From Thiohalospira halophila DSM 15071 (GTDB lineage: Bacteria; Pseudomonadota; Gammaproteobacteria; Thiohalospirales; Thiohalospiraceae): a DNA stretch of 47,062 nt. The translations under genes and the position numbers were made by a program. The notes beneath the pieces were generated by a model, which searched no databases, was not told the DNA's origin, and saw only the letters and a program-made list of their open reading frames with translations. Below are positions 1 to 4,107 of this stretch, in pieces. Numbering within the stretch: position 1 is the stretch's first letter; every line of letters begins with the position of its first letter. The DNA lies in NCBI RefSeq assembly GCF_900112605.1, contig NZ_FOMJ01000011.1:1-47062 (forward strand). The letters run 5' to 3'.

Positions 1-241
1 GCTCGTTCATGGCCGCCGTCTCCACGACCGCCGCGAACTTGTCTCGGCTGCTCCAGCCTTCGGGACCACCGGCATCGGCATCCGGGACGCAGGTCCCTTG
101 GGCTCGAGCCTCGTTACGCCACTTGTACAGCGTGCCCAGGGCAATGCCTTCCTGCTCGGCCACCGTCTGCGGACTCAGGTTGTGGGGCGGCAACATCTTG
201 GCCACTACAGCCTCACGCCGCTCCCGGGAATATCGTGCCAC
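1..241 (-). CDS. IS transposase subunit A, N-terminal part (cut by window edge)
   Basis: The reverse strand encodes an open frame from a GTG at 241 that runs off the left edge, about 80 codons visible. The product starts VARYSRERREAVVAKMLPP and contains a helix-turn-helix of the kind found in IS3-type OrfA proteins (TVAEQEGIALGTLYKW), followed by the segment SSRDKFAAVVETAAMNE that recurs in this transposase group. An in-frame TGA lies one codon upstream of the GTG, and an AGGAG sits 6 bases before it, which fixes the start. The protein would bind the element's terminal repeats, with a DDE integrase domain encoded farther left outside the window. It flanks the AT-rich island and may mark how that island arrived. 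Whether the element is intact cannot be judged. Confidence 0.8.
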   Translation of the reverse strand, partial: MARYSRERREAVVAKMLPPHNLSPQTVAEQEGIALGTLYKWRNEARAQGTCVPDADAGGPEGWSSRDKFAAVVETAAMNE

Positions 242-314
242 TCGTCACTCCTATCGCCCCGGCTTTTCTAAGAACATCCTACCTCACGAGGCGACAACTA
301 GTCTGAGGGCCAGG

Positions 315-336
315 GGCCCCAAAAGATCTAGGGGCC
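315..336 (-). other. Small hairpin at the 3' end of the AT-rich operon
   Basis: GGCCCC at 315-320 and GGGGCC at 331-336 form a 6-bp inverted repeat around a 10-base loop. The element overlaps the stop codon (TAG at 330-328) of the last gene of the island. In the minus-strand transcript the loop holds the T-run, and no T-run follows the stem, so it is not a canonical intrinsic terminator. It may act as a 3' end hairpin or lie near the junction with the insertion sequence. Confidence 0.3.
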
Positions 337-1035
337 ATTACTCAATACCCTATCAGAAACCACAGACCGGGCCCCTTCTCCGCATGCCCAACCATCTTGA
401 TATTGTTTTAGCTTACTGAGCATGCGCTCAAGACGGCTAGCCAAATTGGATTGGACAGCCAACGGCGTAGATTCTTGGCCATTTTCAGCACGGCCTGCAT
501 TACGACTGTTCGCCCAACAAAAGTTGGAAACTTCATCCTCGATAACGTCAAGCTCTTGGGCAATTTCGGAATACACATTGTAGTCTATTAATCGCACCAA
601 AAAGAGCCTATTGGAAATCTTGCCCTTCTCATATTGAAAATCTTGCAAAAATAGATCATAATTGCTTGCGGAACCACTTGTGGGCGCGTACTTTTCTAGT
701 TCCGGTATGGAATCAATCTCCTCCATAGCCCCAAAAATAAACTCCACAAGCGGCTCAAAACACATTGGAAATATCACCGTTCTAACCCAAAACTGGTCTC
801 TCACCGATATTCCTCGATCGACATTGCGACGCTGTCTTTCAACACGCATGCGCCACAGATTCACGGCTAGCACCGCAACCGAAACAACTGCTCCAATAAC
901 AGAAACGACTCCTGAAGTTCCTAGCGAAGAGAGGACTTCCGCTCCTGCTTCAGCCGAACCTGAATCTTGTTCAGCCGCTGACGCACACCAGCTTATGCCC
1001 CAAAGAAAGGTCACATAATAAACCTTACCAATCAA
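328..1035 (-). CDS. Membrane-anchored protein of unknown function, third gene of AT-rich operon
   Basis: A 235-residue protein that I cannot assign to a named family. Residues 1-20 look like a signal peptide or first membrane segment (ending CASAAEQ). A second hydrophobic segment spans about residues 42-61 and is followed at once by a basic stretch (RMRVERQRR), which places the remaining C-terminal ~170 residues in the cytoplasm. That part is probably helical and rich in charged residues. Translation starts at a TTG whose bases overlap the TGA of the upstream gene (TTGA), with AGGGGG 5 bases before it, so it is translationally coupled. Base composition is much AT-richer than the rest of the window. 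From position it could be the membrane output component of the ATPase/STAS-like pair; that role is inference. Confidence 0.75.
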   Translation of the reverse strand: MIGKVYYVTFLWGISWCASAAEQDSGSAEAGAEVLSSLGTSGVVSVIGAVVSVAVLAVNLWRMRVERQRRNVDRGISVRDQFWVRTVIFPMCFEPLVEFIFGAMEEIDSIPELEKYAPTSGSASNYDLFLQDFQYEKGKISNRLFLVRLIDYNVYSEIAQELDVIEDEVSNFCWANSRNAGRAENGQESTPLAVQSNLASRLERMLSKLKQYQDGWACGEGARSVVSDRVLSNGP

Positions 1036-1364
1036 AGCAACCCCCTGCGCTCAAACAAAGCCCTCGAAATATAAGATTCTATCTTAGGGCGAAAGTGGCC
1101 TGGGGCATAAAATTCAAACTTTCTCAAAAAGCTGTCTTTGCTTCCAGCATGCCGGATGCTATCGCCGAAAAGACCGAGAAAAAAGGAGCTATTTATGGAG
1201 TAAGTATCGTCCGGAATGACGACTTTAACCTTTTTACTCTCATCCCTATCAATATCTTCCAGTTTTACTGCCTCCCGAACCTTCTTCCCCCTCTCCCGTC
1301 CCGCGAAAACCGGGCCGCCATGATTCTTCAAATCGATCTCGACTGTTAATTCATTAGCACTCAT
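1032..1364 (-). CDS. STAS-like domain protein (DUF4325-like)
   Basis: A 110-residue single-domain protein. Residues about 20-90 fit the STAS-like DUF4325 pattern: a helix GRERGKKVREAV, a strand KVKVVIPDD, then the phrase INSSFFLGLFG, equivalent to the usual 'S-F-x-x-x-L-F-G' after the strand, and a final FLRKFEF strand. DUF4325 proteins are often encoded beside GHKL-type ATPases, an arrangement reminiscent of anti-sigma factor / antagonist pairs such as SpoIIAB-SpoIIAA. Its ATG overlaps the TGA of the upstream ATPase gene (ATGA at 1364-1361), and its own stop overlaps the start of the membrane-protein gene. The likely job is as protein partner or substrate of the ATPase. The family call rests on pattern recognition only. 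Confidence 0.65.
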   Translation of the reverse strand: MSANELTVEIDLKNHGGPVFAGRERGKKVREAVKLEDIDRDESKKVKVVIPDDTYSINSSFFLGLFGDSIRHAGSKDSFLRKFEFYAPGHFRPKIESYISRALFERRGLL

Positions 1365-2671
1365 ATTGATTCTCTCTCTGAGCCAGAGTAAACCATCGGA
1401 AACTTGATGCTTATTATGCTCCCAGGAAAATTAATATTCTTCATTGTTGATATATAATTCTTATCAGGTTCTTGCGTGAGATCATTCCTTTCATTGAACG
1501 CAATCACGCTTCGACCATGTGCATCTTCTTTCATCCTATACTTTCCATCAAAATAGATATGAGTACTTCCTGACACCAAGGCCATTTTTGCGGAACTGGA
1601 GCTAGAACCCTCTTTCATGCATTCTTCATGCAGATTCTGGAAGACTTCGATCAGCTCTACCGTACCTTGCCCTCTATCCGAACGCTTATCTTCGTGTTTA
1701 CTACTAACGTGGCCTTGCAGGGAAACTAAGGTCAAAAGATCGGAGACCTTCCAATCACGCCCTAAAAACCCTTTCTTCTCATGTTCCTCGATATACGGTT
1801 TAACCTCTTGCCAAGATACGCTAGCCTCATCAAGCTCTAAAAAACTCCTAGAAAAAGTTTTCCCAAGATTAAAAATAGTGATTTCGCAAATATGGTCAGG
1901 ATGATTTTTATCTAAGTACCCATAAATCGCCCAGTCATGTTCGCCTCCATGTTCAACAGCGTTCTTAATAATCTCGCCGGTGTACTCGGAAAGGCGCTGC
2001 TTCGCCCCCGGGGCCAACATTGTTCCATGGTCTTTTAGGCAGTCATTTATATGATCAACAAATTCAGTCCCAACTCTTTCAATATAGTCGGAGTCTTTCG
2101 GATTCAAATCATTATCGAACTTGCGGCCTGTCCTGCTGAACACCCTAAGGTCGCTTTCTTCTTTTTGCGGCAGGCGCTCGTGCTGCAAGTCCAAAGTTTT
2201 TACTATTCCCACACCCTTAATAAACCTCTTTAAATTTTTATCATCCGGGTAATGACCATAAAACTTGGTTTTTTTCCGTTTAAACGAACTTCCAGTTTTT
2301 ATCTCTTTTGCCACTCTATCGAGAACTGCCTCGGCCGCAAGATCAACTTCTTGCATTCTACTATGATCGATGGTTATTTCTCGCACACTATTACTGATAT
2401 ATTCATTCGCTAGCTCATAAACTACCTCAAGAGACTTCTCGGGGTTATCAATTATAGAAAACACTGGCGGCACTTTTATATTTATATCGCTTTTCGAACC
2501 GCGCTTTCTTTGTCGGTCAGGATCATAAAACCTATCTAGTATTCTTGGCTTTCTGGAAAGGTTCCGTCTCCGTTTTTGCCGCTTTTTCTTGTTTTCTTTT
2601 CTCCATTCTTTTTTAAGGGCCTTGTACCTTTTTATAGATAAGAGCCTATCTGGCCATCCCTCTTTTTTCAT
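1361..2671 (-). CDS. GHKL/histidine-kinase-like ATPase with N-terminal STAS-like region
   Basis: A 436-residue soluble protein and first gene of the AT-rich operon. Residues 1-60 are extremely basic (many KKRQKRRR-type runs). Residues about 75-165 resemble a STAS-like fold (REITIDHSRMQEVDLAAEAV). Residues about 220-345 hold a GHKL ATP-binding domain: N-box EYTGEIIKNAVEHG with Glu233, Asn237 and His241; a G1-like IFNLGKTF around residue 268 in which the usual Asp of DxG is Asn; and a G2-like DRGQGT near 332-337. The last 80 residues lack a familiar motif. No phospho-acceptor His box or receiver domain is present, so it is not an ordinary sensor kinase. It more likely acts as an anti-sigma-like kinase or ATP-gated switch on its STAS-like neighbour. 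Start ATG 2671 follows a GGAAGAGG. Confidence 0.7.
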   Translation of the reverse strand: MKKEGWPDRLLSIKRYKALKKEWRKENKKKRQKRRRNLSRKPRILDRFYDPDRQRKRGSKSDINIKVPPVFSIIDNPEKSLEVVYELANEYISNSVREITIDHSRMQEVDLAAEAVLDRVAKEIKTGSSFKRKKTKFYGHYPDDKNLKRFIKGVGIVKTLDLQHERLPQKEESDLRVFSRTGRKFDNDLNPKDSDYIERVGTEFVDHINDCLKDHGTMLAPGAKQRLSEYTGEIIKNAVEHGGEHDWAIYGYLDKNHPDHICEITIFNLGKTFSRSFLELDEASVSWQEVKPYIEEHEKKGFLGRDWKVSDLLTLVSLQGHVSSKHEDKRSDRGQGTVELIEVFQNLHEECMKEGSSSSSAKMALVSGSTHIYFDGKYRMKEDAHGRSVIAFNERNDLTQEPDKNYISTMKNINFPGSIISIKFPMVYSGSERESI

Positions 2672-2699
2672 CTTTGCCTCTTCCAGGAGAAAAACTCAG

Positions 2700-2747
2700 C
2701 ATTTAATAATATATCCATTCAGACCCTAAGGAAGACATTATTAAATG
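2700..2747. promoter_or_regulatory. 11-bp perfect inverted repeat upstream of AT-rich operon (promoter/operator candidate)
   Basis: CATTTAATAAT at 2700-2710 is the exact reverse complement of ATTATTAAATG at 2737-2747, with 26 bases between. The pair lies 29-76 bases upstream of the ATPase start (2671, minus strand) in a very AT-rich stretch that also contains TATATT-like -10 candidates on the minus strand. The spacing suits two sites for a dimeric regulator covering the operon promoter. No regulator gene is visible in the island, so the binding protein is unknown. The repeat itself is directly seen; its function is inferred. Confidence 0.4.
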
Positions 2748-2823
2748 TGCGATTTTTTCGCCAACGATTCGCGCTCTTGCTTTCCCATATACTATATCGC
2801 CTTATGACCAATCCGCTAGCGAT

Positions 2824-3234
2824 CTACTCTGGGCGCCGCCGCATGGCCTTCTTCTGCTTGTGCTGCTGCTTGGCCTCCTTGCGGCGCTTCTGGGAGGCGC
2901 GGCTGGGGCGGCTCGGCCGGCGGGGCTTGTCGGTATGCAGGGCGGCGCGCAGGAGTTCGCCCAGGCGCTCCCGGGCGTCGGCGCGGTTCTGCTCCTGGCT
3001 GCGGTAGTTCTGCGCCTTGATGACGATGGTGCCGTCCCGGGTGATCCGGTGGTCGCGGTAGTGGAGCAGGCGCTGGCGGGCCTCCTCCGGGAGGGAGGAG
3101 GCGTGGATGTCGAAGCGCAGCTGGATGGCGGTGGCCACCTTGTTGACGTTCTGCCCGCCCGGGCCGCTGGCGCGGATGGGGTGGTACTCGATCTCCTCCT
3201 CGGGGATGTGGAGGCGGCGGTTGATCTCGAGCAC
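2824..3234 (-). CDS. arfB: Alternative ribosome-rescue factor / peptidyl-tRNA hydrolase ArfB
   Basis: A 136-residue protein matching ArfB (YaeJ), a codon-independent release factor homologue that frees ribosomes stalled on truncated mRNA. The catalytic GGQ lies at residues 26-28 within SGPGGQNVNKV. The rest of the RF-1 type hydrolase domain follows (TAIQLRFDI, ITRDGTIVIKAQNYRSQEQNR). The C-terminal tail is strongly basic (RRPSRPSRASQKRRKEAK), as expected for the segment that enters the empty mRNA channel. The GTG start at 3234 has GAGGGG just upstream and lies 9 bases after the dehydrogenase stop, so it is probably the last gene of the speA-led run. Base composition drops abruptly after its stop, at the border of the island. 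Confidence 0.93.
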   Translation of the reverse strand: MLEINRRLHIPEEEIEYHPIRASGPGGQNVNKVATAIQLRFDIHASSLPEEARQRLLHYRDHRITRDGTIVIKAQNYRSQEQNRADARERLGELLRAALHTDKPRRPSRPSRASQKRRKEAKQQHKQKKAMRRRPE

Positions 3235-3243
3235 GTCGCCCCC

Positions 3244-4107
3244 TCAGCCGGGGCGGTAGGCGGTGATCAGGGCGGAGTAGTCGTCCTCGGCGTGGCCGGC
3301 CTCGGCGGTGGCGGCCAGGGCCTGCTCCACCGGGGCCAGCAGCGCCGGGTCGATGCCCTGCTCGGTGGCGGCGGCCCGCATGAGGCGGACATCCTTGAGC
3401 AGGTGGGCGACGGGGAAGTTGGGGTCGCCGAAGCGGCCCTCCTGCATGCGGCCGACCTTCTTGTCGAAGGTGGGGGCATAGAGGGCGGAGTCGCGCAGCA
3501 CGCCCATGAACATCGCCGGGTCCACCCCCTCGGCCTCGGTATAGCTCAGGGCGAAGGCGAAGGCGCTGGTGAGGCTGGCGATGAGCTGGTTCATGGCGAG
3601 CTTGAGTGCCGCCGCCGAGCCCACCGGGCCGACGTGGCGCAGGTCCTCGCCGAAGGCGGCGAGCAGCGGCCCGGCCGCCTCGGCCTGGGCGCTGGTCCCG
3701 CCGAACATGAGGATGAGGGTCCCGGCCTTCGCCTCGGGGATGGAGCCGAGCACCGGGCACTCCATGAACTCGCCGCCGGCCGCCTCGACCTCGGCGCCGA
3801 TGGCCCGGGCCTGGTCGGGGCCGATGGTGGCCATGTTCACCACCCGGCGACCGGCCAGCGCGGCACGGGCCTCCGGGTCGTCCAGGAGGGTGGCGCGCAG
3901 GGCGTCGGCATTGGCGACCATGGTGACCACCCAGTCGGCCGCCGCTACGGCCTCGGTGGCGCTGGTAGCCACCGTGGCGCCGTCCTCGGCCAGGGCGGCG
4001 GCGCGCTCGGGGGTGCGATTGTAGACGTGGACCTCGTGGCCGCACGCCAGCAGGCGGCGGGCGAGCGGGGCGCCCATGAGACCGGTGCCGATGACGGCGG
4101 TGCGCAT
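3244..4107 (-). CDS. NAD(P)-dependent beta-hydroxyacid dehydrogenase (HIBADH/glyoxylate reductase family)
   Basis: A 287-residue cytoplasmic oxidoreductase. The N-terminal Rossmann fold begins at once with the dinucleotide motif VIGTGLMGAPLA (residues 5-16). The substrate-binding signature, usually D-x-P-V-S-G, appears as ECPVLGSIPEAKAGTL near residue 115. The catalytic Lys is in AALKLAMNQL near residue 168, and the C-terminal helical domain has the family's F-D-K-K-V-G-R-M and F-P-V-A-H-L-L-K-D-V segments. The divergent PVLGS motif argues against a true 3-hydroxyisobutyrate dehydrogenase and nearer to glyoxylate/succinic-semialdehyde reductase-like members. The exact substrate is not predictable. 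An AGGAGG precedes the ATG. It lies between a tail-anchored protein and arfB in the same direction. Confidence 0.88.
   Translation of the reverse strand: MRTAVIGTGLMGAPLARRLLACGHEVHVYNRTPERAAALAEDGATVATSATEAVAAADWVVTMVANADALRATLLDDPEARAALAGRRVVNMATIGPDQARAIGAEVEAAGGEFMECPVLGSIPEAKAGTLILMFGGTSAQAEAAGPLLAAFGEDLRHVGPVGSAAALKLAMNQLIASLTSAFAFALSYTEAEGVDPAMFMGVLRDSALYAPTFDKKVGRMQEGRFGDPNFPVAHLLKDVRLMRAAATEQGIDPALLAPVEQALAATAEAGHAEDDYSALITAYRPG

Follow-up and report, generated by a model that had tools for sequence, protein, structure and literature searches.

Kinase-STAS switches were linked to phage immunity only in 2026 in the literature searched; their outputs there are a DNA-binding repressor and a PIN nuclease. 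The two described systems are VapKSC and CapKS (Chambers et al., EMBO J 2026; PMC13373217). CapK (HTH-STAS-GHKL), once bound to ssDNA, phosphorylates CapS (STAS-wHTH), which represses an immune operon; the CapKS genes precede such operons. In VapKSC a related kinase/STAS pair frees the VapC nuclease, which the STAS protein otherwise holds in check, and E. coli was protected from phage Bas42. A conserved aromatic residue (F54 of VapK, W68 of CapK) was tied to activation by ssDNA (PMC13373217).

A three-gene module of Thiohalospira halophila appears to be an undescribed relative of these systems with a candidate membrane effector. It lacks the PIN toxin and so is not VapKSC, and it lacks the winged HTH and so is not CapKS, but its design resembles theirs. 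The module lies near the start of the window, the 47,062-nucleotide stretch of DNA that was analyzed (Table 1). Genes 1 and 2 overlap by 4 nt (positions 1361-1364), as do genes 2 and 3 (positions 1032-1035), and the GC content of the module was 43.6% compared with 71.3% for positions 2824-47062 of the window. The contig begins inside an IS element that adjoins gene 3 and leaves a gap of about 13 bp after its stop codon. The edge of the element was placed near position 315, since further copies in the same genome were identical exactly up to that base; the element is neighboring mobile DNA and lies outside the system. The compact minus-strand operon, its sharp drop in GC content against surroundings of about 70% and its transposase neighbor, all reported in the earlier note, were thus borne out by the ORF coordinates, the base composition and the transposase fragment.

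Table 1. Position of the module, its protein domains, adjoining features and the loci of a second DUF4325 group. Nucleotide positions are those of the window; aa, residues of the gene 1 product.
Feature	Position or loci	Strand	Description and basis
Gene 1, STAS-GHKL kinase/ATPase	1361..2671	minus	436 aa, ATG start; ORF
Gene 2, STAS-like (DUF4325) protein	1032..1364	minus	110 aa, ATG start; ORF
Gene 3, membrane protein, candidate effector	328..1035	minus	235 aa, TTG start; ORF
IS element end	2..315	minus	transposase fragment 2-241, Pfam HTH_Tnp_1 E 3.5e-6
Imperfect inverted repeat	2700..2747		20-nt arms, 80% complementary; upstream of gene 1
Gene 1 basic N-terminal helix	aa 6-38		AF2 model
Gene 1 STAS-like domain	aa ~60-165		AF2 model, VIA match (aa 60-162)
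Gene 1 GHKL domain	aa ~174-428		AF2 model, VIA match to SpoIIAB (aa 176-424)
Second-group loci	L047, L061, L063, L070, L073, L075, L076		plasmids and genomes

The opposite flank of the module carries high-GC chromosomal genes (release-factor-like, 3-hydroxyisobutyrate-dehydrogenase-like, cupin and arginine decarboxylase). The release-factor-like gene had only about 52% identity to its counterparts in genomes of the same family and was too diverged for an empty-site comparison. The AT-rich inverted repeat overlaps a weak promoter-like site 5' of the kinase gene. It did not recur in the homologous loci and is probably not a defining part of the module, as judged from these comparisons. Regulation by a conserved operator or attenuator 5' of the kinase gene was rejected, given the unconserved repeat and an unremarkable RNA fold (z -0.87). 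Positions 1-4000 of the window had no match in Rfam.

The AF2 model of gene 1 (pLDDT 84.8) contains a GHKL domain whose top VIA match was SpoIIAB (Z 11.1, rmsd 2.7 Å, 130 residues), with the next families scoring far lower. The N-terminal part matched a STAS domain with a VIA Z of 7.4 over 88 residues, a score that common arrangements also reach. The N-box (E233-N237-H241; E-x3-N-x3-H) was invariant in the alignment of long-type kinases (23/23) and also in all nine short-type kinases. R333, G334 and G336 of the R333-G334-x-G336 motif were invariant in 23 sequences. At N268-x-G270 the usual aspartate of the G1 box is replaced by asparagine (N268, 22/23), a change that could weaken nucleotide binding. 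The N-terminus was basic in each of the 27 family kinases counted, with 10 to 25 lysines and arginines within 55 residues. F71, close to where the STAS domain begins, was conserved in 22 of 23 sequences and is at most a candidate counterpart of F54 of VapK or W68 of CapK. Sub-threshold Pfam matches to Relaxase_M, DUF6210 and DUF6401 were dismissed as chance, and a search of PDB sequences with the kinase profile returned only weak matches to ribosomal protein S3. In gene 1 the GHKL domain is preceded by a STAS-like domain, a feature overlooked in the earlier note, and on this modeled architecture the gene product is classed as a CapK/VapK-type kinase.

Gene 2 encodes a single STAS-like domain, and its homologs range from about 103 to 141 aa. 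By itself the protein scored below the cutoff for Pfam DUF4325 (PF14213; E 0.049, 13.8 bits, cutoff 23). DUF4325 was matched by 10 of the 25 family members (best E 4e-5), and the family profile aligned with canonical DUF4325 proteins in hhalign with 95.2% probability (E 2.7e-8). By this profile-profile match gene 2 is classed as a divergent DUF4325 (STAS-like) protein. The same profile found nothing meaningful among PDB sequences. S60, within SINSSFFLGLFG, was invariant (25/25) and was almost always preceded by another serine. S60 aligns where anti-anti-sigma factors carry their phosphorylated serine, and we infer phosphorylation of S60 itself. The segment INSSFFLG of gene 2 lines up with DSSGLG of SpoIIAA, in which we take the second serine to be the phosphorylated residue.

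Gene 3 begins with a signal-peptide-like N-terminus, followed by a transmembrane (TM) helix centered near aa 51 in a hydrophobicity scan. Most homologs have one strong hydrophobic segment with positive charge after it, and the C-terminal part is therefore predicted to be cytoplasmic. In the AF2 model gene 3 contains a four-helix bundle; pLDDT is 79 for the whole model and exceeds 90 across much of the bundle. The family shares the motif SIxDxFWxRxVxxP, which includes W83. No informative match was obtained in Pfam, PADLOC, PHROGs or fold searches. Assignment to FAT, vinculin or another generic helical-bundle domain was rejected, as Foldseek E values were above 0.04 and VIA Z scores (11.6 or less) were in the range of unrelated bundles. 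Gene 3 of the window had no significant match to PIN (VapC-like) proteins, and only one of 24 family members reached an E value of 0.039. With no recognizable toxic or enzymatic domain, gene 3 is a candidate effector by its position and by analogy. At two of the 32 loci (L021:11668-12248 and L034:11494-12079) gene 3 is broken into two reading frames, with genes 1 and 2 open in both. The break could reflect a costly gene 3, an indirect hint of a toxin-antitoxin module, or sequencing error. Thus each part of the trio conformed to its description in the earlier note: an ATPase with an anti-sigma-like N-box (the E-N-H residues are invariant and SpoIIAB is the best structural match), a small STAS-like DUF4325 partner, and a last gene for a membrane-anchored protein, with one TM helix and a predicted cytoplasmic bundle.

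A search of 144 genomes of relatives found the kinase only in the T. halophila genome, which also gave the sole strong match in a sample of 369 genomes of the class. Of two weak matches in that sample, one (G170) is the kinase of another DUF4325 operon and the other (G145) falls within a reading frame in which DUF4325 was matched as well. Homologs in the plasmid and viral collections were mostly about 30% identical, and 19 further loci, with 24-47% identity, came from scanning 84,980 species genomes. Annotated phage records in INPHARED gave no kinase match, although viral contigs carry the kinase. Wherever the DNA downstream of the kinase gene could be read (31 loci besides the window, 32 in all), the three genes kept this order and strand, with at most short gaps or overlaps between them. 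Within the Pseudomonadota the trio was found in Burkholderiales, Vibrionales, Enterobacterales, Methylococcales MAGs and others, and beyond that phylum in Bacteroidota (Spirosoma and Hymenobacter) and a Gemmatimonadales MAG. One further locus (L003) is probably a Bacillota prophage, from its gene content. Gene 3 of the window found no plasmid homolog as query, whereas its Pantoea homolog did. When plasmids were searched by tblastn with Pantoea gene 2 or gene 3, each query found six records, all among the seven that bear the kinase. Distances among the three proteins correlated (Mantel r 0.88, 0.81 and 0.74; 0/2000 permutations), which indicates that the three genes diverge together and are transferred together. 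The recurrence of the same order in 31 other loci means that the operon is no chance arrangement; the earlier note had made its proposal depend on such co-occurrence, on a STAS-like small protein and on a third gene found in more than one strain, and gene 2 is STAS-like and gene 3 is present in the homologous loci.

Prophages carry copies of the module close to lysis or integrase genes; other copies reside on plasmids, some of them small, or in islands flanked by integrases. In Aquabacterium commune (L032) the BREX genes BrxL, PglZ and PglX lie directly beside the module (L032:12463-21276); an AAA-like gene and one other gene are situated between PglZ and PglX. In L026 an operon of type I restriction-modification (R-M) and AbiE genes begins 92 bp downstream on the same strand. 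L018 has a type IIG R-M enzyme and PDC-S06 next to the module, L030 a PLD-helicase, and L008 a ZorE-type nuclease. The neighboring proteins were picked by eye with no control set, so this result is descriptive, and the majority of loci had no defense gene among the candidates scanned. PADLOC-DB 2.0.0 holds no model for the trio, and none of the three proteins matched it even at an E value of 1. The earlier suggestion that the module arrived by transfer agrees with its low GC content, its IS neighbor and the copies on prophages, plasmids and integrase-flanked islands, and the suggested antiphage setting was seen around some copies.

The module shares with VapKSC a three-gene operon comprising a STAS-GHKL kinase, a small STAS protein with a conserved Ser/Thr and an effector (in the module a candidate) in last place, as well as mobility and frequent proximity to defense genes. 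It differs in its third gene (a TM helix and a helical bundle instead of a PIN nuclease), in its longer kinase (about 436 aa with a basic N-terminal helix, compared with about 290 aa) and in kinase and STAS sequences that form a separate, divergent branch. With CapK and CapS it shares the kinase order of N-terminal extension, STAS and GHKL, an adjacent STAS protein (in the module a putative substrate) with a conserved serine and an association with R-M and other immune operons. In contrast to CapK, with its described HTH, the module kinase begins with a basic helix; gene 2 has no winged HTH, is therefore not expected to be a repressor, and is followed by the module's own membrane gene. The GHKL fold, the E-N-H N-box and a STAS partner with serine at the phospho-position are also common to SpoIIAB-SpoIIAA and RsbW-RsbV, but the module kinase has its own STAS domain and the third gene encodes a membrane protein.

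A DUF4325 survey of the class detected one kinase-DUF4325-PIN operon (L056), and an annotated kinase on a Deinococcus plasmid was then found from the L056 kinase. Both operons are taken to be VapKSC by their architecture, and in the VapKSC-like operons found the STAS partner was a DUF4325 protein. Direct profile comparison of the window kinase family with a single VapK-like sequence was weak (64%, E 6.5e-5), and gene 2 gave an insignificant alignment with the VapS-like partner (2%). The literature search, which left out bioRxiv preprints and most subscription journals, found no paper tied to the trio. The earlier statement that no described system has this gene set holds for the gene set itself, but VapKSC and CapKS (PMC13373217) are described relatives. 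The partner-switch idea of the same note is supported by the SpoIIAB-like GHKL domain, the E-N-H N-box and a STAS partner with an invariant S60.

The class survey and the plasmid search also revealed a second set of operons, composed of a kinase of about 310-380 aa, a DUF4325 protein and a small third protein that in most cases spans the membrane. The same gene order occurs in a published table for Francisella phage KIRK (Fhv_0046-0048; PMC7924643), and no name for these operons was found in the literature searched. Their kinases were homologous to the window kinases over 298 columns (98.4%, E 6.5e-15) and to the VapK-like kinase of the kinase-DUF4325-PIN operon (97.5%, E 6e-12). The second group has the same three-gene anatomy with a membrane third gene, and its kinases and STAS proteins are homologous to those of the module by profile. 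It differs in its shorter kinases and in a canonical GSSFLEE STAS motif, and its third proteins gave no alignment with gene 3. In L094 the second-group operon comes after TcmP-like and Gp37/Gp68-like genes. At L019:13294-14635, 0.9 kb from a homologous module, a 300-aa HATPase-DUF4325 fusion is followed by a 155-aa TM protein. The fusion is a one-protein version of kinase and substrate and supports contact between the two.

We consider the module a mobile, stress- or phage-responsive partner switch of the VapKSC type with a membrane-protein effector, by analogy with the described systems and with a probability of roughly 0.6. This reading is favored because of the architecture, the conserved residues, the strict linkage, the homology of the kinase and STAS proteins, and the mobile and defense context. 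In the resting cell, unphosphorylated gene 2 protein would hold the cytoplasmic helical domain of gene 3 inactive. An infection signal (ssDNA by analogy, or damage), possibly aided by the basic N-terminal helix, would turn on the STAS-GHKL serine kinase, which would phosphorylate gene 2 on S60. Phosphorylated gene 2 would release gene 3, and the freed protein would act at the inner membrane so that growth or phage production stops. The phosphorylation of S60, the contact of gene 2 with gene 3 and its release, the trigger, the membrane toxicity and the phage defense are all inferred steps.

Gene 3 might instead be the input, a membrane sensor whose periplasmic or membrane portion registers envelope disturbance and which relays the signal by way of its cytoplasmic bundle to the kinase/STAS pair; the pair would then act on a host target encoded elsewhere, for example a sigma factor. 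The variable N-terminal segment of gene 3, predicted to be periplasmic and placed before the TM helix, would suit a sensor; the bundle is shaped like chemoreceptor sensor domains, as are many helical bundles, and gene 1 is closest in structure to anti-sigma kinases. We regard this as unlikely. The neighborhoods, read by eye, revealed neither a sigma factor nor a conserved fourth gene beside the operon, the effector occupies the third position in VapKSC-like operons, and it is less plausible that a mobile cassette would depend on such an unlinked target in hosts from several phyla.

It is still less probable that gene 2 controls an adjacent immune operon, as in CapKS, with gene 3 as an accessory anchor. 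The R-M/AbiE operon downstream in L026 and the adjoining BREX genes in L032 fit such a regulator, given the position of CapKS ahead of immune operons (PMC13373217), yet gene 2 has only about 110 aa and no winged HTH of the CapS type, the majority of loci have no such operon downstream, and the palindrome upstream in the window is unconserved. The least probable reading, slightly behind the regulator, is a housekeeping module of phages or plasmids, with a role in lysogeny, superinfection exclusion or plasmid maintenance and not in general defense. Several copies do lie in prophages by lysis or integrase genes or on small plasmids, but others are chromosomal beside BREX, R-M and other defense genes, and the copies occupy unrelated types of element.

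A VapKSC-like switch with a membrane-protein output would make the kinase-STAS pair a general adaptor for different effectors. The branch would provide a test set for how STAS proteins choose their effectors, a new effector fold, and a testable function for a family listed in databases only as hypothetical proteins or DUF4325. More tentatively, and at somewhat less than even odds, the module may represent a new, widely mobile antiphage class whose GHKL kinase, activated by phage or damage, phosphorylates a STAS antitoxin and thereby frees a membrane-anchored helical-bundle effector. If so, then together with the short-type DUF4325 operons, membrane effectors, and not VapC, would be a main output of kinase-STAS immune switches.
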